From Bacillota bacterium (GTDB lineage: Bacteria; Bacillota; Sulfobacillia; JAJZYS01; JAILZS01), in assembly GCA_023512375.1 (NCBI GenBank), contig JAILZS010000001.1, positions 62,001 to 126,000 of the forward strand: a stretch of 64,000 nt of DNA. The letters run 5' to 3'. Shown here piece after piece: positions 20,278 to 30,602 of the stretch (the first letter of the stretch is position 1; each line of letters opens with the position of its first letter). Under the pieces are notes generated by a model, which was not told where the DNA came from, searched no databases, and was given only the letters and a program-made list of their open reading frames with translations. Made by a program: the position numbers and the translations under genes.

Positions 20278-20751
20278 GTGGCGGCGGTCGGGGGAAGGGT
20301 GCGCGGGCGCTTTCGGCGTGGCGGCCTCGCCGCAGTGGCGTTGGCCGCCGCCCTGTGGGCGGCCGGCTGCGGGGTGGTGTACGTCCCCGGGCCGGCCTTC
20401 ACCGTGCGCAGCCTGTTCTTGTACCTCCGCCTGGGGGCGCGGGAGAGCGCCTGGCAGGAGCTGGCGACGGACCTCCAGCGCCCCGGGCGGCCCCACGCCG
20501 CGGTCGGTCCGGACGGGGCAAGCGCCCTCTCCCTCGCCTGGTCGGGGGAGGGCGCGTTCGCCCGCCAGGCACCGCGCCAGCTTCGGGCCTTCCTGCGCGG
20601 GGCGCGGGTGAGCGAGGCGGCCGGGGGGGCGCAGGGGCCGGCAGAGGTGGAGGCGCGCTCGCCCGGAGGCGAGCGCCTGTGGGCGACGCTCGTGCGGGTG
20701 GACAACGAGTGGCTGATCGAGCGCATCGTGGTCGAGCCGCCGCCGGCATGA
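20278..20751 (+). CDS. Exported/lipoprotein-like hypothetical protein
   Basis: 157 aa. An Arg-rich N-terminus, a hydrophobic segment (LAAVALAAALWAAGC) and a Cys give a lipoprotein-like signal, but the lipobox WAAGC is not canonical. The mature part is small and predicted alpha/beta, ending WATLVRVDNEWLIERIVVE, a pattern seen in small NTF2-like domains. I do not recognise a family. It lies between flgL and fliC where Bacillus has yviE, fliW and csrA, but has no similarity to FliW or CsrA that I can see. The start is uncertain (GTG 20278 overlaps its own GGAGGAGG). Confidence 0.6.
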   Translation: MAAVGGRVRGRFRRGGLAAVALAAALWAAGCGVVYVPGPAFTVRSLFLYLRLGARESAWQELATDLQRPGRPHAAVGPDGASALSLAWSGEGAFARQAPRQLRAFLRGARVSEAAGGAQGPAEVEARSPGGERLWATLVRVDNEWLIERIVVEPPPA

Positions 20752-20901: not shown

Positions 20902-21486
20902 ATGCCCGCCATGGCATTCCGCCGTCTGCCCGATGCCCGGTCCCTGACGGCGTTCGGGGTGGGGGTCCTGCTCGCCCTTGCGCCGTTCGCCCCGGCCGCC
21001 GCCTCCCCCCGAAAGCCTCCCTACCGGGGCCTCACCCGGAGTGCCATCCTGCGGGTGCTTCGCCGCGCGGAGGAGGTGACGCCCGGCCATCCCCGCGGCG
21101 ACGGCGAGCACCTCGCCCTCCTGGGGAAGATCGTGAGCGTGCCGGACGGGCACGGCGGCACGCTCACGGCCGTACCCGCCGTGCGCTACCCCACCGCCGA
21201 CGGGTACGGCCAGCTGGTCCTGTTCTGGGTGGGAAGGCGCCTGGTGGGGAGCAACAACCTCACGCCCCTACCCGACCTGGGACCCGAGGCGGTGTCGCTC
21301 GCCGTCGTCCGCGCCGGCCCCGACCGCATCGTCGTCCGCTATGCCCGCTACCGGGCGAGCGATCCCATGTACCGCCCCTCCCTGCCGCCCGGGTATGTGA
21401 CGTACTCCTGGGACGGCAAGCGGCTGGTGGCGTCGGGGCCGGTCCCCCGGGGGGCGGTGGACGGCCTCACCATGCGCCTGCCGTGA
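20902..21486 (+). CDS. Secreted protein, possibly LppP/LprE-like
   Basis: 194 aa. A signal peptide (LTAFGVGVLLALAPFAPAAA) is followed by a compact domain. The C-terminal segment VRYARYRASDPMYRPSLPPG then YVTYSWDGKRLV recalls the end of LppP/LprE-type lipoproteins of actinobacteria, which usually carry YRxGDxxCCPS; here the cysteines are absent. That likeness is from memory and tentative. It lies between flgL and the flagellin gene, followed by a strong hairpin, so it probably ends the flgM operon. Confidence 0.6.
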   Translation: MPAMAFRRLPDARSLTAFGVGVLLALAPFAPAAASPRKPPYRGLTRSAILRVLRRAEEVTPGHPRGDGEHLALLGKIVSVPDGHGGTLTAVPAVRYPTADGYGQLVLFWVGRRLVGSNNLTPLPDLGPEAVSLAVVRAGPDRIVVRYARYRASDPMYRPSLPPGYVTYSWDGKRLVASGPVPRGAVDGLTMRLP

Positions 21487-21544: not shown

Positions 21545-21798
21545 TTGGCGCGCTTCGCGGCGCGCATGCCATCGCACCAGGGGGGCGCCGGACGGGGAGA
21601 GGACCTGAAGCGGGCCAGCGGACGAGAAACGAATCCAAGGGGTCGTGCGGAAGAGCGAGAGGGAGCACAGCAGCGACGTCAGGCAGCCATGGGCGCTGGC
21701 CCCCTGTGGCGGCATGCAGGGGCACGGGCTCCTGACCGATCGAGAGCACTGGTTCATGCGCATGGACCGGCTTTGCGAGAAGGCAGGTGACGTGCCCC
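21545..21798 (+). promoter_or_regulatory. Flagellin gene leader region
   Basis: About 250 bp without a gene, between the hairpin and the flagellin start, with lower GC than its surroundings in the last 200 bp. It must hold the flagellin promoter and a long 5' leader. I could not find a convincing sigma-28 pair (TAAA and GCCGATAA); the nearest -10-like string is CTGACCGATCG near 21731. The ribosome site is GGCAGGTGA just before GTG 21799. Confidence 0.45.
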
Positions 21799-23586
21799 GT
21801 GTTCGTCAACACGAACATCTCCGCCCTGCAGTCGGTCTTCGACCTGCAGAACACGACCAACCAGATGGACAACGTGCTCCAGCAGTTGTCCACCGGTTAC
21901 CAGATCAACAGCGCCGCCGACAACCCGGCGGGCCTCGCCATCTCCCAGGAGATGCAGACCCAGATCACCGGTCTCAACCAGGCGGCCCAGAACGCCCAGA
22001 ACGGCATCTCGCTCCTCCAGACGGCCGACGGCGCCATGGCCAACATCGACACGATCCTGCAGTCGATGCGGTCGCTGGCGTCGCAGGCGGCGACGGGTAC
22101 CAACAACCCCACCGACCTGCAGGCCCTCCAGCAGGAGATGAACCAGTACGCTCAGGAGATCACGAACATCGCGAACACGACCCAGTTCAACAACCTTAAC
22201 CTCTTGTCGGGCGCGTTCGGTGGCGCCACGGGTGGCTACTACAACGCGAACGGCCAGTATGTGGGCGGCGTGAGCACCGGTCTCGAGAACATCCAGATCG
22301 GCGCCAACCAGGGGGAGAACATCAGCCTCGGCATCAACCCCCTGGACGCCGCCTCCCTCAACGTGGCGGGGGTGACGGCCACCCTGAATCCGGCCACCGG
22401 TACGAACAACTTCAGCACCCTCGTGAACCAGTCCACGCTGGGCACCTACGTGTACAACATCGGCAACGGCCTGTTCACCCCCAACGGCACCGGCACGACG
22501 AACGAGTACAACGTCTCCGTCGCCTCCTACGTCGCCGCCGGTGTCACGGCGACGACCACGAACCTTGGCGGTGCCGGATCGATCACCACCACCGCCACCA
22601 CGACGGGGCTCCTGTCGGGCGACTTCACGGGCACCTCCCAGGTGCAGTACACGATCAGTGTGGTTTCCGTCGTGGCCGGCACGAGCACAAACACCATCTA
22701 CTACGACGTGACGGGAAGCGACGGCTTCTCGGCCGCCCTGAGCACGACACAGGCCGTGTCAAATGCGACGACGGCGGCAGGCGTGGCCACGTTCACCTTC
22801 ACCGACACCCAGCTCGCCGGCACAACCCTGAGCCTCACGAGCAACAGTAGCGCTGTCACCGTGTCGGTAAACCAGTCGGCCACCTTCGAGATGACGCCCG
22901 CCTACGTCGAGCTGGGTCTCTACAACGGCACGGGCACGAGCACCCTCGTGGGGCCGTCGACCTCGATCGTCACGGGCGGCGTCACCACCAGCGTGAATGC
23001 CAACCTCGTGCTGTACGGGTCGAACATGGTGTCCAACCAGCCCATCATCCTGGGCAACTCCAACACGTCGGACCAGGTGACGCTGGCCAACCTCGGCCTG
23101 CTCCTTGGCCAGTCCTCCACCACCGCCAAGCCCACGTCGGGGAGCGAGTACGCGAACCTCGTGACGCTCGGCGCGACGCCGGCGACCGGACCGTACACCC
23201 TCGCCTTCACGGTGGCGTCGGACGGCAAGGCCGCCACCGTGGCCGGAAGCGGCATCGTCACCACGGCGGCCACCGTGACGAGCGGCATCAACATCTCCAC
23301 CCAGGGCAACGCCGAGACTGCGCTCACGGTCATCGACCAGGCGCTCACGGCGGTCAACGCCCAGCGGGCGGTGCTCGGCGCCTACCAGAACGAGCTTCAG
23401 TTCGCCGTCTCCAACGCCCAGACGGGGGCCAACAACCTCAGCGCCGCGCAGGCCAACATCATCGACACGAACATGGCGCTGCAGATGGCCAACCTGTCGA
23501 AGTACCAGGTCCTGCAGCAGTCCGGCATCGCCATGCTGGCCCAAGCGGATCAGATCCCGCAGGCGATCCTCAAGCTCATCGGCTAG
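21799..23586 (+). CDS. fliC: Flagellin FliC/Hag
   Basis: 595 aa. N-terminal VFVNTNISALQSVFDLQN, YQINSAADNPAGLAISQEM and the C-terminal NIIDTNMALQMANLSKYQVL are the conserved D0/D1 parts. The middle 320 residues are a large Thr/Ser/Val-rich beta domain, so the filament surface is big and offers many hydroxyl sites. I prefer GTG 21799, because VFVNTNISAL then aligns with the usual MRINTNISAL start and GGCAGGTG lies at proper distance; the track start 21787 would add four residues. An apparent terminator follows. Confidence 0.96.
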   Translation: MFVNTNISALQSVFDLQNTTNQMDNVLQQLSTGYQINSAADNPAGLAISQEMQTQITGLNQAAQNAQNGISLLQTADGAMANIDTILQSMRSLASQAATGTNNPTDLQALQQEMNQYAQEITNIANTTQFNNLNLLSGAFGGATGGYYNANGQYVGGVSTGLENIQIGANQGENISLGINPLDAASLNVAGVTATLNPATGTNNFSTLVNQSTLGTYVYNIGNGLFTPNGTGTTNEYNVSVASYVAAGVTATTTNLGGAGSITTTATTTGLLSGDFTGTSQVQYTISVVSVVAGTSTNTIYYDVTGSDGFSAALSTTQAVSNATTAAGVATFTFTDTQLAGTTLSLTSNSSAVTVSVNQSATFEMTPAYVELGLYNGTGTSTLVGPSTSIVTGGVTTSVNANLVLYGSNMVSNQPIILGNSNTSDQVTLANLGLLLGQSSTTAKPTSGSEYANLVTLGATPATGPYTLAFTVASDGKAATVAGSGIVTTAATVTSGINISTQGNAETALTVIDQALTAVNAQRAVLGAYQNELQFAVSNAQTGANNLSAAQANIIDTNMALQMANLSKYQVLQQSGIAMLAQADQIPQAILKLIG

Positions 23587-23657: not shown

Positions 23658-25106
23658 ATGGCCAAGCGACCCCTCCTGAGCCTGTGCATGATCGCCCGCG
23701 ACGAGGAGCGCGTCATCGGTCGCGCGATCGTCTCGGCGCGAGGTGCGGTGGACGAGGTGGTGGTGGTGGACACCGGCTCCACGGACCGCACCCCCGCCGT
23801 GGCCGAGGCGCTGGGGGCGCGGGTGTACAGCGAGCCCTGGCGTCAGGACTTCGCGCACGCGCGCAACGCCTCCCTCGCGCAGGCGCGGGGGGAATGGATC
23901 TTCGTCCTGGACGCGGACGAGTACCTGGACGCGGCCGACGCCCGCCGCCTGCGCTCGCTCGTACGGACGGCCCCACCGGACGTCGTGGGCATGTCCGTGC
24001 ACCAGGTGAACATCCTGGCCGGCCGGCGCGAGGCGCTCATCGACCGCTCCACCACCATCCGCGTCTTCCGCAACCGCCCTCATCATCGGTACGTCTTCCC
24101 CATCCACGAGCAGATCGCGCCCTCCCTCGGCCAGGGGCGGGTGGCGGTCACCGACATCGTGCTCTGGCACGAAGGGTTCGACCCGGGCGTGGCCGCTGCC
24201 CGCGCCAAGGGAGAACGCAACCTGGGGATCCTCCGGCGAGTGCTGGCCGAGATGCCGCAGGACCATCCCTACCGCTGGTACTTCGAGATGCAGACCGGGG
24301 GCGAGTTTGCCCGCATGGGCGACATGCGTGCGGCCGCCGACCACCTCCTGAGGGCGGCGCACCTCACGGCGGCGGACCGCTACAACCCCCTCAACCGCGG
24401 CAGCGTCGGCGTGCTCATGGCCAACCTGGCGCGCGCCCTCATCCCCCAGGGGAGGGCGTCGGAGGTGCTCGACCAGGCCGAGGCCCTCTTGGCCAAGGGG
24501 TGGAACGTGGCCAGCGTCTGGTTCGCGCGCGGTTGGGCGAATGTGGAGATTGGTGCGGTGGAGGCGGGTGTGCGCGACCTTCTTTGGGCCACCGCCTTGA
24601 GCGAGGCCACGGCGAATGGGGAGGGCTACGTGTCCGAGGGCCAGCTGCGCGCCGCCTGGTCGTTGGCCGTCCATGCCCTCGTGCGGCGGGGCGCCGTGGC
24701 GGCGGCCGCGGCCCTGCTCGTGCATGCCCTGAAGGCCCGGCCGGACGACGAGCGCCTCGTGGCCATGGCCACGGGCATATGCGCCGGTGTGCCGGGGGCG
24801 CGTGACTTCCTCGTCCCCCGCCTACCGGCGGCCAGCGTGTGGCCATTCGCCCAGAAGGCGGCGTCGGAGGGACGCCTACCCGAGGTGGAGGCGGCTGGCC
24901 GGCGCCTGGCTGCCGACGGTGACCCGCACGCCCCGGTGGCGCAGGCGATCGTCGCCATCGCCCATGGCGAGCGGGAGCGGGCGCGTGCCCTTCTCATGGG
25001 CGTCGATCCGACCTCGCCGGCGGCGGAGGCGGCGCGGTACGCGCTTGCGCGCCTTTCGGCCGAGGAGGGCGTGCATGCCGGCAAGCAAGGGGAGGTGGTG
25101 GCATGA
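23658..25106 (+). CDS. GT2 glycosyltransferase with C-terminal TPR region, probable flagellin modifier
   Basis: 482 aa. Residues 1-200 form a GT-A domain: LSLCMIARDEERVIGRAI, VDEVVVVDTGSTDRTPAVAE and the metal-binding DxD in ARGEWIFVLDADEYLDAAD. Residues 200-480 are helical repeats with TPR-like AEALLAKGWNVASVWFARGW. This layout is that of tetratricopeptide glycosyltransferases that modify flagellin or surface proteins. It starts 71 bp after fliC (GGGGAGGTGAGGGGCG before ATG) and overlaps fliS by ATGA. Sugar donor unknown. Confidence 0.85.
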   Translation: MAKRPLLSLCMIARDEERVIGRAIVSARGAVDEVVVVDTGSTDRTPAVAEALGARVYSEPWRQDFAHARNASLAQARGEWIFVLDADEYLDAADARRLRSLVRTAPPDVVGMSVHQVNILAGRREALIDRSTTIRVFRNRPHHRYVFPIHEQIAPSLGQGRVAVTDIVLWHEGFDPGVAAARAKGERNLGILRRVLAEMPQDHPYRWYFEMQTGGEFARMGDMRAAADHLLRAAHLTAADRYNPLNRGSVGVLMANLARALIPQGRASEVLDQAEALLAKGWNVASVWFARGWANVEIGAVEAGVRDLLWATALSEATANGEGYVSEGQLRAAWSLAVHALVRRGAVAAAAALLVHALKARPDDERLVAMATGICAGVPGARDFLVPRLPAASVWPFAQKAASEGRLPEVEAAGRRLAADGDPHAPVAQAIVAIAHGERERARALLMGVDPTSPAAEAARYALARLSAEEGVHAGKQGEVVA

Positions 25107-25510
25107 GGGGGGCTCAGGCCTACCAGGCCATCGCGTTGGACACGACGCCGCGCCATCGGCTGGTGGAGGTCGTCCTGGAGCGGGCGATCGCCCACATCGC
25201 CCGGGCGGAGGAGGCGATCGCCCGGCGCGACCCGGCCACGGCGCACGACGGCCTCATGCGGGCGCAGATGGCGCTCGGCGCCTTGCGCACGTCCCTCCGG
25301 CGGGAGGTGGCGCCCGAGCTCGTCGACCAGTTGGCGGCCTTGTACACGTACGGAATCGACCGCCTGACGGCGGCCAACGTGCGCAAGGACGCGTCGGAGC
25401 TCGGGGCTTTGCGCCGGATGCTCGACGTGCTGCGCGAAGCGTTTGCCGACGCCGCCCGCCAGGCGGGGGCGGGCGGCGCCGGGCCGACGGCGGAGGTGAA
25501 GGGGAGATGA
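25103..25510 (+). CDS. fliS: Flagellin chaperone FliS
   Basis: 135 aa, all helical. YQAIALDTTPRHRLVEVVLE, then ELVDQLAALYTYGIDRLTAAN and a final helical stretch match FliS, where the usual forms are YxxxxVxTASPxxLixMLYD and NLxxLYxYxxxxLxxAN. FliS caps flagellin C-termini before export. ATGA overlaps at both ends couple it to the glycosyltransferase and to fliD. The ALYTYGIDRLTAAN motif is well kept. Confidence 0.92.
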   Translation: MRGAQAYQAIALDTTPRHRLVEVVLERAIAHIARAEEAIARRDPATAHDGLMRAQMALGALRTSLRREVAPELVDQLAALYTYGIDRLTAANVRKDASELGALRRMLDVLREAFADAARQAGAGGAGPTAEVKGR

Positions 25511-26976
25511 GCAGCCCGGTCGGCGGGAGCACGAGCTCGATCAGCAGCCTGTGGAACAACCCCACGCTGTTGGGCCAGCTCCTGGGGGGCATCAACGTGC
25601 AGGGCCTGCAGGGGGTGCTGCAGGCGGAGGAGAGCCAGGTGGCGGCGCCGCTCGCCCAGCTGACGAACCAGCAGAACGCCCTGAGCGCCCAGGGCCAGGC
25701 GCTCAGCGCCGTGCAGGGGGCGTTGCAGGCGGTCCTGACGGACGCCCAGAACCTGGAGTCGGCGTCGGCCTTCAACCAGACCAGCGCGCCCGTGTCGTCC
25801 AACCCGTCCGTGGCCACGGCCACCGGCACGGGCGGACCGTACGGCGACTACGCCCTGGTGGTTACCAACACGGCCACCCCCGGAGGGGTGAACAGCGCCT
25901 TCCAGGCGGTGTCGCCCACGGCCAGCCTGGGGTGGAACGGCCAGATCCAGATCACGGTGTACGTCGGCATCCCGCCCCAGCAGACCGCGATCACGGTGGA
26001 CGTGCCGGTGGCGGCGACCGACTCGCTCACCAGCATCGCCCAGAACATCGACAACGCCGCCGCCGCCGCCCTGCCGAGCGGCACGCAGCTCAACGCCGTG
26101 GTCCTGCCGGCGAGCCAGAACGGTCAGTCGGGGAGCATCCTCTCCCTCAGCGTCAACGGCGGTCTCACGAGCTCCGACGTGACCACCACCGGTTCGGTGC
26201 CCAACCTCGGGTTCACGAACGCCTCCACCTTCACGCCTGCCACGTACTCGATCAACGGCGTGACCAACCAGAGCACGTCGAACACGGTCTCCAACGCGCT
26301 GCCGGGGGTGACGCTCAACCTCCTGTCGGCGGGGAGCGCCACCTTGTTCATCGCCGCCAACCCGGGGGCCACCGCCTCCCAGGTGGGCTCGCTCGTGTCG
26401 GACATCCAGACGGCCGTCAATACCATTCAGAAGTACACGGGTAAGGGCCAGCCCCTGGCGGGCAACGGCGCCCTCATGAATCTCGTGAATCAGCTGGAGA
26501 GCGCGCTCACGTCCACGAACTCGTCGCTGCCGGCGGGCTACCAGTCGCTCACCGACATGGGGTTGACGATCAGCTACTCCCAGGCCACGGGGGGAGCCAT
26601 CGCCCTCGACCAGAGCGCCTTCACCCAGGCGCTCACCGCCAACCCGCAGGCGGTGACCGGGCTGTTCACCGGTACCTCCGGCCTGGCGTCGCAGATCGCC
26701 TCCCTCGTGCAGAACTTCACCCAGCCCGGCACGGGTGCCATCGCCGCCTACCAGCAGGGTATCCAGAATCAAGAGTCGCTTCTGGCGAGCGAGGAGGCCG
26801 CCCTGCAGCAGACGGTGTCGCTGCAGCAGCGGCAGCTGCAATCCCAGTTCATGTCCTTTCTTCAACAGATCGCGAACAACGTCTCTACGCAGAACTTCCT
26901 CACCCAGTACGTCGCCCTCCAGAGCGCCGTCACCACAGGTGGGGGATCGTCGGGGAGCACGCGCACCGGTGGCTGA
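25507..26976 (+). CDS. fliD: Filament cap protein FliD
   Basis: 489 aa. The N-terminal helical arm contains INVQGLQGVLQAEESQVAAP, and the C-terminal arm has QFMSFLQQIANNVSTQNFLT. Between them are beta-rich domains with Val/Thr/Asn repeats and the FliD-like DMGLTISYSQATGGAIALDQ block. FliD forms the pentameric cap that folds flagellin. Here it follows fliS, the reverse of the common fliD-fliS order. ATG overlaps the fliS stop. Confidence 0.93.
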   Translation: MSSPVGGSTSSISSLWNNPTLLGQLLGGINVQGLQGVLQAEESQVAAPLAQLTNQQNALSAQGQALSAVQGALQAVLTDAQNLESASAFNQTSAPVSSNPSVATATGTGGPYGDYALVVTNTATPGGVNSAFQAVSPTASLGWNGQIQITVYVGIPPQQTAITVDVPVAATDSLTSIAQNIDNAAAAALPSGTQLNAVVLPASQNGQSGSILSLSVNGGLTSSDVTTTGSVPNLGFTNASTFTPATYSINGVTNQSTSNTVSNALPGVTLNLLSAGSATLFIAANPGATASQVGSLVSDIQTAVNTIQKYTGKGQPLAGNGALMNLVNQLESALTSTNSSLPAGYQSLTDMGLTISYSQATGGAIALDQSAFTQALTANPQAVTGLFTGTSGLASQIASLVQNFTQPGTGAIAAYQQGIQNQESLLASEEAALQQTVSLQQRQLQSQFMSFLQQIANNVSTQNFLTQYVALQSAVTTGGGSSGSTRTGG

Positions 26977-27538
26977 CGAGGCGGTGACGGTCGCGGTGCG
27001 GGTGCGGGCGGCGGCGCCGGCCGACGCCGCGGCCGTGCTCGACCTGTTGGGGCGGGTGGCGCGAGAGTCGCCGCTGGCGGCGTTGGAGGGGGTGCCCGCC
27101 GACCCGGAGCCCTTCGCCCGCGCCCTCGGGCGCATGGGCGACGGGGGCGCGGTGCTCCTGGCGGAGGAGGTGGCCGAGGCAACGCTGGTAGGCGTGGCGG
27201 TGGTGGCGCGCGGGCCCGGCCCCGCCCGCCATACGGCCAACCTCTCGCTCGCCGTGGCGGAGGCGGCGCGGCGGCGCGGCGTGGGCCGCGCCCTGGTGCG
27301 GGCGGCGGCGGAGTGGGGGGCGGAACAGGGGGTCGAACGCCTCACCGCATCGGTGGCGTCGGGCAACGGCGCCGCCCTGGCCCTGTTCGGCGCTCTGGGG
27401 TTTTCCATCGAAGGGCGGCGCCCGGGACACCTGCGCATCGGGGGCGCGTTGTACGACGAGGTCCTGTTCGGCGCCGGCGTGGCCGAGGTGCGCGCGCGCC
27501 GGGCGCCGGCGCTGCGGCGCCCGGGGGTCGTCCGATGA
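26969..27538 (+). CDS. GNAT-family N-acetyltransferase
   Basis: 189 aa from GTG 26969, which overlaps the end of fliD. The acetyl-CoA-binding motif is AEAARRRGVGRALVRAAAEW, followed by the usual NGAALALFGALGFSIEGRRP. This is a RimI/PhnO-like single GNAT domain. The substrate is unknown. Position inside a coupled filament-modification unit suggests an amino-sugar or a flagellar protein lysine/terminal amine as acceptor, which is inference only. The ORF upstream of 26969 in the track is a shadow of fliD. Confidence 0.8.
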   Translation: MADEAVTVAVRVRAAAPADAAAVLDLLGRVARESPLAALEGVPADPEPFARALGRMGDGGAVLLAEEVAEATLVGVAVVARGPGPARHTANLSLAVAEAARRRGVGRALVRAAAEWGAEQGVERLTASVASGNGAALALFGALGFSIEGRRPGHLRIGGALYDEVLFGAGVAEVRARRAPALRRPGVVR

Positions 27539-29112
27539 GCGGAAGGCGCCCTCGGCAGGGGGCGGGGCCGGAGCTGACGGCGGCGCTGCTGGTGCCGCCG
27601 GGGAGGGGATGGCCCGACGCGGCCGTGGAGGCGGCGCGGGCGGTGGCGGAGGAGGTCTTGGTGGTGGGGGCGCCCCCGCCTTCCGGCGCCCTGCCGGAGG
27701 GGGTGCGGGCGGTGCCCGGCGCCGGCCAGGAGGCGGGGGGCGCGGTGGCGGCGGCCCTGGGGAGCGCGCGCGGGCAGTGGACGCTCCTCGTGCGTCCCGA
27801 CGAGCTTCCCCACGCCCCCCATCCCCGCACCCTGCGCCGCTACCTGCGTCACGGCACGGCGAGCGCCTTCTTCGTCCCCTTCAACGACCAGCCGCCCCTG
27901 GTGCGCGTGCTCCCCACCGGCGCGGGCCGCCTGTGGGGGGACGACCCGCTCCCTGCCCAGGCGCTCCTGGAGGCGGAGCCGGGGCGGCGTCTGATGGCTA
28001 CGGAGGGGCTGTCGCTCGCCCGCAGCGCGCGCGCCTGGCCCGTGGCCGCCACCCGCCCGGGAGGGGTGTGGCTGAGGGCTACACGGGCGCTCGGCCGCGA
28101 GCGGTGGGCGGCGGCGACCCGCCTCCTGGCCGGGGAGGAGGGGCCGGAGGCGGCCGCCCTCTTGGGCGAGGCGGCCTTCTGGCGGGAGCGTTGGGACGAG
28201 GCGCAGGCGCACTGGCAGAGGGCTCTCGGGGCGGGACGGCCATGGGCTCCCGCGGCGCGGGCCGCGGGCGTGGGCCTGGGGCGGCTGGCCGAGGCGCGCG
28301 GCGACCTGGAGGGGGCGCGGGCCGCCTACCGCCGTGTCCTCGAGGCGGCGCCGCTGGACGGGGTGGCCCTGGCGCGCCTGCTGGCGGTGGACTGGCGGCT
28401 GGGCGCCTCCTGGCCGGAGAGCGTGGGCCAGGTGGTGCGCCTCCACCCGGCGGCCTGGCGCGGCGTCGGCCGCGCCCTGGACCGCATCGTCCCCCCGTCC
28501 GCCCAGGTGCGCGCCCTGCGCTCCATGCCCATGGCGTACGGCCGCGACCTCTTGTTGGCCCGCGCCGCCCTGGCGACGGGCGACGCGGCCACGGCCAGGC
28601 GCTCGCTTCGGCGCGTGGAGCCGGGCGTTGGCCTTACCGCCGTCGGGTACCAGGCGTGGCTCACCGAGGTGGTGGCGGGCTCCGCATCGGAGGCGCGGGC
28701 GGTGGCGGCCCGGTGCACGGACATGTCGGCCGCCGCCCGCCTTGCCATGCTCCTGGCCGCTGGGGCGGTGCTGGGGGAGCCGGGTCAGGTGCCCACGCTC
28801 GGCCCGGAGGAGACGCTGGAGGTGGGCGAGTGGCTCCTCGTCGCCTTGGCGGACCTGGCCCTCCTGCGCCTGGAGGCGCAGGCCCGCGCCCTGGCCCGCC
28901 TCGTGGCCTCGCTCCTGGGGCCTGCGGGTACGGCCGAGGTGCGCGCCGTCCTGTGGCGGGCGGCGAGGGCGGCGGGGCCGGCGCGGCGAGGGCGGCGGGT
29001 GCGGCCGAGCCGCCACCTGGTGCTGCTGCCCCGCCCCGCCCGGGCGCCGGCGTGGTGGGAGGGGCCGGAGATGGACGCGGTGGAAGGGGTGGACCGATGG
29101 CCGTCGCGATGA
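27535..29112 (+). CDS. Glycosyltransferase-like/TPR protein lacking the DxD motif
   Basis: 525 aa. The N-terminal 130 residues look like a worn GT-A domain: EEVLVVGAPPPSG stands for the DEVVVVDTGS strand, and SARGQWTLLVRPDELPHA for the ARGEWIFVLDADEYLDA of the nearby enzyme, so DxD is replaced by RPD. Residues 200-480 are helical, TPR-like (EARGDLEGARAAYRRVLEAA). The same two-part layout suggests an ancient paralogue of the 23658-25106 gene that has lost metal binding. It may be a partner, carrier-recognition or scaffold subunit. ATGA couples it to the GNAT gene. Confidence 0.6.
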   Translation: MSGRRPRQGAGPELTAALLVPPGRGWPDAAVEAARAVAEEVLVVGAPPPSGALPEGVRAVPGAGQEAGGAVAAALGSARGQWTLLVRPDELPHAPHPRTLRRYLRHGTASAFFVPFNDQPPLVRVLPTGAGRLWGDDPLPAQALLEAEPGRRLMATEGLSLARSARAWPVAATRPGGVWLRATRALGRERWAAATRLLAGEEGPEAAALLGEAAFWRERWDEAQAHWQRALGAGRPWAPAARAAGVGLGRLAEARGDLEGARAAYRRVLEAAPLDGVALARLLAVDWRLGASWPESVGQVVRLHPAAWRGVGRALDRIVPPSAQVRALRSMPMAYGRDLLLARAALATGDAATARRSLRRVEPGVGLTAVGYQAWLTEVVAGSASEARAVAARCTDMSAAARLAMLLAAGAVLGEPGQVPTLGPEETLEVGEWLLVALADLALLRLEAQARALARLVASLLGPAGTAEVRAVLWRAARAAGPARRGRRVRPSRHLVLLPRPARAPAWWEGPEMDAVEGVDRWPSR

Positions 29113-29420
29113 TGGCGCGCGTACGGACGAAGCGAGAGCGGGGAGAGGCGGCGGGGGGCGTCTACCTGGCGCTCACCCGGCGCCTGGCGGCGGCGGCGGT
29201 GCGAGGCGACGACGGCCGCGCACGGCGCCTCGTGGTGGCGCGCGAGGAGCTCTTGGCCGTGTTGCGGACGCAGGGCTGGCGGCCGTCGCACGCCCTGGCG
29301 GCCGAGGTGCGCTCGCTCGAGGCGCGGACGATGCTGGCCCTGGGCGTCGACCCCTTGCCGGTACGGCACCGCACCTGGTGGCGCGAGGAGGCCGAGGGCG
29401 CGGCCCTAGGCGCGCCCTGA
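29097..29420 (+). CDS. Small helical protein, possible FliT-like chaperone
   Basis: 107 aa from ATG 29097, overlapping the previous gene by 16 bp. Residues 20-85 form a helical bundle pattern (YLALTRRLAAAAVRGDDGRA, RRLVVAREELLAVL, SLEARTMLALG). FliT, the FliD chaperone, has this size and layout and usually follows fliD-fliS. Sequence identity is too low to be firm. The last gene of the flagellar block; the next start is 93 bp away behind a PHO-box-like element. Confidence 0.5.
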   Translation: MAVAMMARVRTKRERGEAAGGVYLALTRRLAAAAVRGDDGRARRLVVAREELLAVLRTQGWRPSHALAAEVRSLEARTMLALGVDPLPVRHRTWWREEAEGAALGAP

Positions 29421-29448
29421 CCGCGTCGACTCCCGCAGGGACGCGCGG

Positions 29449-29470
29449 CTTAACGCGGCCTTAACACGGC
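29449..29470 (+). promoter_or_regulatory. PHO-box-like direct repeat upstream of pstS
   Basis: Two adjacent 11-bp repeats, CTTAACGCGGC and CTTAACACGGC, differ at one base. PhoP/PhoB boxes are built of 11-bp direct repeats, and the Bacillus core is TTAACA. The pair ends 43 bp before the pstS start, and a -10-like GATATGGT follows at about 29474. This is what phosphate-starvation control by a PhoP-type regulator should look like. Confidence 0.65.
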
Positions 29471-29513
29471 CGCGATATGGTCGTGTCGGACGAAGTCCCG
29501 AGGGAGGTAGACC

Positions 29514-30602
29514 ATGGAGGCCAAGCGCGCTTGGCGTCGGTGGGCATCGGCCGGCGCGGCGACGATCCTGGCGGCGGCGGTGGCGGCGCCCGCGGCGACG
29601 TGGGCGGCCGGGCGGCCGGCGGTGCACCGGTCCGGCTCGAGCGTCACCCTGCTGGAGACGGGCTCCACCCTTCTCTACCCGCTCTTCAACCTCTGGGTTC
29701 CGGCGTACACGCACACCCATCCGGGCGTGAAGATCACGACCGCCGCCACCGGGAGCGGCACGGGCATCTCCGAGGCGACCAGCGGCGCGGTGCAGATCGG
29801 CGCCTCGGACGCCTACCTGCCGCCCGCCCATCCGTCGACGCTCATGAACATCCCGCTCGCCATCTCGGCCCAGCAGGTGAACTACAACGTGCCGGGCCTC
29901 AACGGCGTGCACCTCAAGCTGAGCGGCCCCGTGCTGGCCGGCATCTACACGGGCCGCATCAAGACGTGGAACGCCGCCCCCATCCGCGCCCTCAACCCGG
30001 GCGTCAAGCTCCCCGCCCACGCCATCGTGCCCTTGCGGCGGGCGGACGCAAGCGGCGACACCTTCATCTTCACCCAGTACCTCACCTTCTCGGCCGGCAA
30101 GGCCTGGCCCGCCGGCTACGGCACGTCCGTCAGCTGGCCGGCGCTTCCGTCGCTCGTCGCCGAGCCGGGCAACTCGGGCATGGTGAGCGGCCTCAAGTCG
30201 ATCCCGTACTCGGTCGCCTACGTGGGCGTGAGCTACCTGAACGAGACGAACGCCGCCCACCTGGGCGAGGCGAAACTGGAGAACCGGGCCGGTAACTTCG
30301 TCCTGCCCGTCGCCGCCACGATCGAGACCGCGGCCAAGGCGCGGGTGGGCCAGACGCCGCCGGACGAGGCCCTCTCCCTGGTGTACGCGCCGGGCAAGGA
30401 CGCCTACCCGATCATCAACTACGAGTACGCCATCGTGTCGCAAAAGCAGGCGAGCGCCGCCGTGGCGGCCGCGGTGCGGAGCTTCCTCACCTGGGCGCTG
30501 ACGGTGGGCAACGGCGAGCGCTTCCTGTCGCAGGTCCACTTCCAGCCCCTTCCGCCCGCCATCGTGAAGATGAGCAAGGCGCAGATCGCCAAGGTCCGCT
30601 AG
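29514..30602 (+). CDS. pstS: Phosphate-binding protein PstS
   Basis: 362 aa. The signal peptide (ATILAAAVAAPAATWAAG) has no lipobox Cys, so the protein may be secreted or anchored otherwise. The ligand region SSVTLLETGSTLLYPLFNLW and TAATGSGTGISEATSGAVQI correspond to the PstS phosphate-binding loops (GAGATFPxPxY, and GSGxGxxAxxxGxxDxGxSD). It feeds PstCA. ATG lies after GGGAGGTAGACC. First gene of pstSCAB-phoU. Confidence 0.92.
   Translation: MEAKRAWRRWASAGAATILAAAVAAPAATWAAGRPAVHRSGSSVTLLETGSTLLYPLFNLWVPAYTHTHPGVKITTAATGSGTGISEATSGAVQIGASDAYLPPAHPSTLMNIPLAISAQQVNYNVPGLNGVHLKLSGPVLAGIYTGRIKTWNAAPIRALNPGVKLPAHAIVPLRRADASGDTFIFTQYLTFSAGKAWPAGYGTSVSWPALPSLVAEPGNSGMVSGLKSIPYSVAYVGVSYLNETNAAHLGEAKLENRAGNFVLPVAATIETAAKARVGQTPPDEALSLVYAPGKDAYPIINYEYAIVSQKQASAAVAAAVRSFLTWALTVGNGERFLSQVHFQPLPPAIVKMSKAQIAKVR

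Follow-up and report, generated by a model that had tools for sequence, protein, structure and literature searches.

A probable GmaR-type flagellin glycosylation and export operon with a degenerate glycosyltransferase-like gene in a member of the Sulfobacillia

Genes predicted to modify proteins lie among those for flagellin, its export chaperone and the filament cap in a 64,000-nucleotide stretch (hereafter the window) of a Bacillota bacterium of the class Sulfobacillia (GenBank:JAILZS010000001.1, positions 62,001 to 126,000; source genome 2.68 Mb in 104 contigs), and the question raised by this locus, at positions 23658–29420 of the window, is what these genes modify and in which order modification and export take place. 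Our analysis suggests that the unit is probably a cytoplasmic flagellin O-glycosylation and export operon of the GmaR/flagellin glycosyltransferase (FGT) type, in which an intact glycosyltransferase (GT) is accompanied by an acetyltransferase and by what appears to be a degenerate copy of the GT.

The GT gene (23658–25106; like fliC and the rest of the unit, on the + strand) starts 71 bp after the flagellin gene fliC (21787–23586, 599 aa; Pfam Flagellin_N 3.5e-36, Flagellin_C 9.3e-18) and encodes a GmaR-like protein of 482 aa, composed of a family 2 GT domain (Pfam Glycos_transf_2 8.6e-21) followed by tetratricopeptide repeats (GT2-TPR). Alignment showed that it retains all the family-invariant motifs (ARDE, DTGSTDRT, LDADE, FRN, HEQI and H171), the DTGS and DxD of an intact GT2 catalytic domain included. 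In profile searches, the nearest solved structure was the GT domain of GmaR (22ao, E 3.4e-52), followed by SunS (1.4e-28). Matches of the C-terminal part to Pfam TPR models were weak (TPR_14 16.4 bits, cut-off 23.5), but residues 202–380 aligned to the conserved TPR region of the family, and the A2 profile matched consensus TPR structures. GmaR attaches N-acetylglucosamine (GlcNAc) to flagellin, and flagellin binding has been proposed for its TPR domain (PMC9638930); TPR-containing GTs in Clostridium have been termed flagellin glycosyltransferases (PMC13317340). By analogy, the window GT would bind flagellin in the cytoplasm via its TPR part and would attach a sugar, most likely GlcNAc as in GmaR, to Ser/Thr residues of the variable flagellin middle; the modified flagellin would then be handed to FliS and exported, that is, by handover and not by action on the chaperone complex, and FliD would cap the filament. 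The central region of FliC contains 29.5% Ser+Thr, and such a Ser/Thr-rich, lysine-poor middle fits O-glycosylation and speaks against lysine acetylation as the main job of the acetyltransferase.

For 119 relatives within this order and class, the fliS loci were extracted, and fliS was recognised by profile in 115 of them, representing 43 families; linkage was counted as a profile match within 6.5 kb of fliS. The GT was found near fliS in 35 of the 115 relatives (13 of the 43 families) and the GNAT-type acetyltransferase in 15 (6 families), with both present in 9. The GNAT profile derived from the window together with 12 loci that were among these or neighboured them; genomes G082, G103, G108 and G111, referred to below, were outside its training set. 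Because genome-wide profile matches amounted to a few per 3 Mb, chance proximity to fliS would be rare. Judging from the counts in relatives, linkage of the GT and the GNAT to the filament genes is real and old. In addition, filament genes (fliC, fliS or fliD) were located near a GT2-TPR gene in 28 of 80 loci fetched by the GT profile from a public genome collection, examples being loci of Alicyclobacillus, Caldanaerobacter and Selenomonas. To this extent, the initial annotation, which had connected modification with the filament genes, was upheld. The order fliC-GT-fliS-fliD-GNAT is common to the window, four genomes of family f4 and one of family f40, and other relatives had fliC-fliS-fliD-GT-GNAT (G124, G135 and G149) or fliC-fliD-GNAT-fliS-GT (G030).

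Downstream of the GT gene are fliS (25103–25510; Pfam FliS 6.6e-24, TIGR00208 above cut-off), fliD (25507–26976; Pfam FliD_C 1.5e-27, FliD_N 4.1e-10), the GNAT gene (26969–27538, 189 aa, GTG start; Pfam Acetyltransf_1 1.9e-14), a gene for a degenerate GT2-TPR protein, here called pseudo-GT (27535–29112, 525 aa), and a gene for a small all-helical protein (29109–29420, 103 aa, or 107 aa from an alternative upstream ATG at 29097). This gene content, and overlap at all five junctions, had been proposed initially and agreed with the sequence and with Pfam and NCBIfam searches. The overlaps were 4 bp for GT/fliS (ATGA), 4 bp for fliS/fliD, 8 bp for fliD/GNAT and 4 bp for GNAT/pseudo-GT, and 16 bp or 4 bp for pseudo-GT/small gene, depending on the start chosen; fliC, with its spacer, stands outside this chain. 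Across the window, 18 of 53 same-strand gene pairs overlapped, 12 of them by exactly 4 bp, and beyond the unit 14 of 48 did so, flhB-flhA-flhF among them. Five overlaps out of five thus mark a tight operon, although any single overlap is unremarkable here. The GC-by-codon-position signature was typical of coding DNA in every frame of the unit; an antisense open reading frame of 1298 aa (25120–29016) was disfavoured, as gene calling with a codon model picked the forward genes. Consensus scans, which are weak for such elements, revealed neither a sigma-70 promoter nor a terminator on the same strand within 23658–29420, which is in line with a single operon.

The GNAT fits general GNAT models, and its closest solved structures were phosphinothricin-acetyltransferase-like proteins and uncharacterised GNATs. 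Identification as PseH, the flagellar sugar N-acetyltransferase, was rejected (TIGR03585, 18.1 bits against a cut-off of 93.1). Acetylation of filament lysines was judged unlikely from lysine counts, FliC having 4 and FliD 2, and the GNAT and the small protein are also almost lysine-free. Because of the scarcity of lysines in FliC and FliD, the substrate is probably an amino-sugar or another small amine and not the filament lysines.

Only TPR matches were obtained for pseudo-GT in Pfam and NCBIfam. Its N-terminal part aligned with the GT2-TPR family in a colinear manner over residues 12–274 (hhalign probability 77%, E 2e-5; 36% and 4e-4 with a smaller profile), which suggests a remnant of a GT-A domain. 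The alignment outscored all of the approximately 750–890 scored shuffles; on one of the two profiles, an unrelated window gene exceeded the single-domain score of pseudo-GT, so that the evidence for the remnant stays moderate. A low-confidence structural model (mean pLDDT 59) had a beta-alpha-beta start at a pLDDT of about 64–79, followed by TPR helices, and Foldseek matched only the TPR part, the GT-A remnant not being visible to it. The catalytic motifs are gone, DTGS being replaced by GAPPP, LDADE by VRPDE and HEQI by GLSL, and pseudo-GT lacks the DxD and the donor-binding Asp of an active GT2 enzyme. No homologue was found at 1e-4 in 154 genomes of the class, making pseudo-GT so far a single-genome protein; a match of 30% over 141 residues in G040 (4.6e-4) covers the TPR part. 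Since the GNAT gene is followed by a gene for a helical protein of about 95 aa in relatives of families f4, f40 and f47, pseudo-GT, which separates these two neighbours in the window, looks like an insertion between them. It is most likely a non-catalytic paralogue, the predicted TPR part of which would bind flagellin, FliD or the active GT. In a literature search confined to the listed titles and abstracts of a partial library, no earlier description of a degenerate paralogue of GT2-TPR type at a locus of this kind came up.

The last gene had been called FliT-like, a designation to which position, size and predicted fold lend support and sequence does not. It lies beside fliS and fliD, at the same place relative to the GNAT gene as its counterparts in f4, f40 and f47, and its AlphaFold2 model is a four-helix bundle (pLDDT 84). 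The protein had no Pfam or NCBIfam match, that to FliT included, and did not score clearly above shuffles against a profile of the positional counterparts (45 of 1000 shuffles equalled its score); Foldseek gave the FliT-related structures 5krw, 5gna and 3h3m at non-significant E values of 6.8–8.4. Judging from position, size and the helical-bundle model, it is probably a FliT-type chaperone. It was also noticed that in G149, G124 and G135 the gene after the GNAT gene encodes a protein of about 125 aa that appears PilZ-like by eye (L074:4974-5372, L075:2181-2552 and L076:14241-14612, respectively), and that the small helical gene was not seen there.

Several known systems resemble the unit in part. 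GmaR of Listeria monocytogenes, a flagellin O-GlcNAc transferase and MogR antirepressor, likewise has an N-terminal GT2 domain followed by TPRs, but its 637 residues include a C-terminal antirepressor domain (PMC9638930), whereas the window GT has 482. In Clostridioides difficile, the gene for GT1/CD0240, to which addition of the first sugar (GlcNAc/N-acetylhexosamine) is assigned, also lies directly 3′ of fliC, and co-transcription of the modification genes has been described for strain R20291 (PMC5207246); additional modification genes come after the first GT in C. difficile, whereas the window GT is situated between fliC and fliS, and no further active GT for sugar extension was recognised in the unit. 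In Geobacillus and Clostridium, flagellin glycosylation islands (FGI, FGT) carry glycosylation genes in the flagellin/fliD/fliS/fliT locus, as here (PMC5109656, PMC13317340), but those of Geobacillus are variable, comprise 11–23 proteins and include pathways for nonulosonic acids (NulO) or other sugars, whereas the unit has one GT, one GNAT and no sugar pathway. In the genome, a weak NeuB match, of a kind that also arises in most control genomes, is uninformative on nonulosonic acids, and the PF01041 matches are generic. FlmG of Caulobacter crescentus, similarly, O-glycosylates flagellin in the cytoplasm and is of modular build, including a domain that binds flagellin (PMC7591256); compared by description only, it differs in having this domain at the N-terminus and in using pseudaminic acid.

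The interleaving of modification and chaperone genes had initially been taken to mean that modification is tied to export and possibly occurs on the chaperone-bound substrate. According to such a scheme, the GT would act on FliS-held flagellin, and the GNAT and pseudo-GT on chaperone-held FliD or flagellin, with gene overlap bringing enzyme and chaperone together. Preservation of the 4-bp GT/fliS overlap in G003, G008 and G010 would agree with this, as would TPR parts that could bind chaperone complexes. However, overlaps are the local norm, gene order varies between relatives, and 14 of these encode the GT and fliS on opposite strands, so that the GT cannot be translationally coupled to fliS there; given the overlap count for the whole window and these differences in order and strand, gene overlap was not accepted as evidence of export coupling. 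In Aeromonas caviae, moreover, glycosylation comes before, and is independent of, binding by FliS (FlaJ), which binds glycosylated flagellin better and displaces Maf (PMC4065374). We infer a corresponding handover for the window unit, although the A. caviae system uses Maf and not a GT2-TPR enzyme, and consider modification of chaperone-held substrates very unlikely. Turning to the GNAT, it is possible, if not what we favour, that it is no glycan enzyme but functions alongside FliD and the small helical gene, perhaps acetylating the N-terminus of a chaperone or filament protein, or acts on an unrelated small molecule, being merely co-transcribed with the GT. Its place between fliD and the small gene in f4, f40 and f47, including genomes without a flagellar-type GT, and its PseH score far under the cut-off are consistent with this, while the near-absence of lysines from FliC, FliD, the GNAT and the small protein leaves few targets for lysine acetylation, and co-occurrence with the GT is somewhat above expectation (both at the locus in 9 genomes versus 4.6 expected; Fisher p 0.014, uncorrected for relatedness).

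Some observations weigh against the favoured reading of the unit as a flagellin O-glycosylation and export operon. The co-occurrence of GT and GNAT is only modest; the GNAT gene directly follows fliD with no local GT in G007, G009, G082, G103, G108 and G111, and G082, G108 and G111 keep it with no flagellar-type GT2-TPR genome-wide (matches of ≤40 bits only), so that the GNAT need not serve the GT pathway and a single pathway shared by the modification genes cannot be assumed. The FliT assignment is weak, and the Ser+Thr fraction of flagellin differs only slightly between genomes with (0.211) and without (0.189) a local GT (p 0.03, uncorrected). Finally, gene content, intact GT motifs and conserved genomic linkage were observed directly, and the target and sugar of the GT, together with cytoplasmic timing and handover, would follow from its relatives. 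As for pseudo-GT, it is somewhat unlikely that it is a functionless, decaying duplicate of the GT: loss of the catalytic motifs and the lack of an orthologue in the class would be expected of such a gene, but the 525-codon frame is intact, its coding composition is normal, and its start and stop overlap both neighbours. Its being a functional TPR adaptor that supplies the active GT (or the GNAT) with flagellin or FliD after having itself lost catalysis, so that catalysis and capture would be split between the paralogues of a two-subunit transferase, is unlikely; Maf-2 with its partner GlfM, as far as cited in PMC13317340 and compared by description only, offers a functional precedent.

With regard to the surroundings, the search for sigma-28-like sites gave none with fewer than 3 mismatches of 12, and the fliC-GT spacer folded no more stably than shuffles. 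The region from the last stop of the unit to the start of a solute-binding (pstS-like) gene (29415–29520) folded more stably than 200 of 200 shuffles (z -3.1) and may represent a terminator or a leader that separates the flagellar unit from the phosphate-transport genes. Between flgL and fliC are two genes, of which the first lacks a Pfam match (20278–20751) and the second has an LppP/LprE lipoprotein-like domain (20902–21486). In several f40 relatives, some of them without a flagellar-type GT2-TPR, a hydrophobic membrane protein, possibly a glycosyltransferase as guessed from the sequence start, is encoded near fliC (L238:11614-13071, L233:8841-10316 and L083:16171-17910), and genes that are csrA-like at the sequence start were seen near filament genes of relatives (L233:3721-3948, L083:6926-7159 and L080:14192-14455).

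That flagellin loci of Gram-positive bacteria can include GTs is already well documented (PMC5109656, PMC5207246, PMC13317340); the unusual addition here is pseudo-GT, probably a dead GT copy, and this gene and the GT-independent tie of the GNAT to fliD are the points worth following. The unit extends GmaR-type flagellin glycosylation across a bacterial lineage that has received little study, with conserved linkage to an acetyltransferase gene as well as to fliS and fliD, and its GT, FliC and FliS form a compact system for testing directly whether glycosylation or chaperone binding comes first. Pseudo-GT could illustrate the way in which a protein glycosyltransferase splits catalysis from substrate binding.

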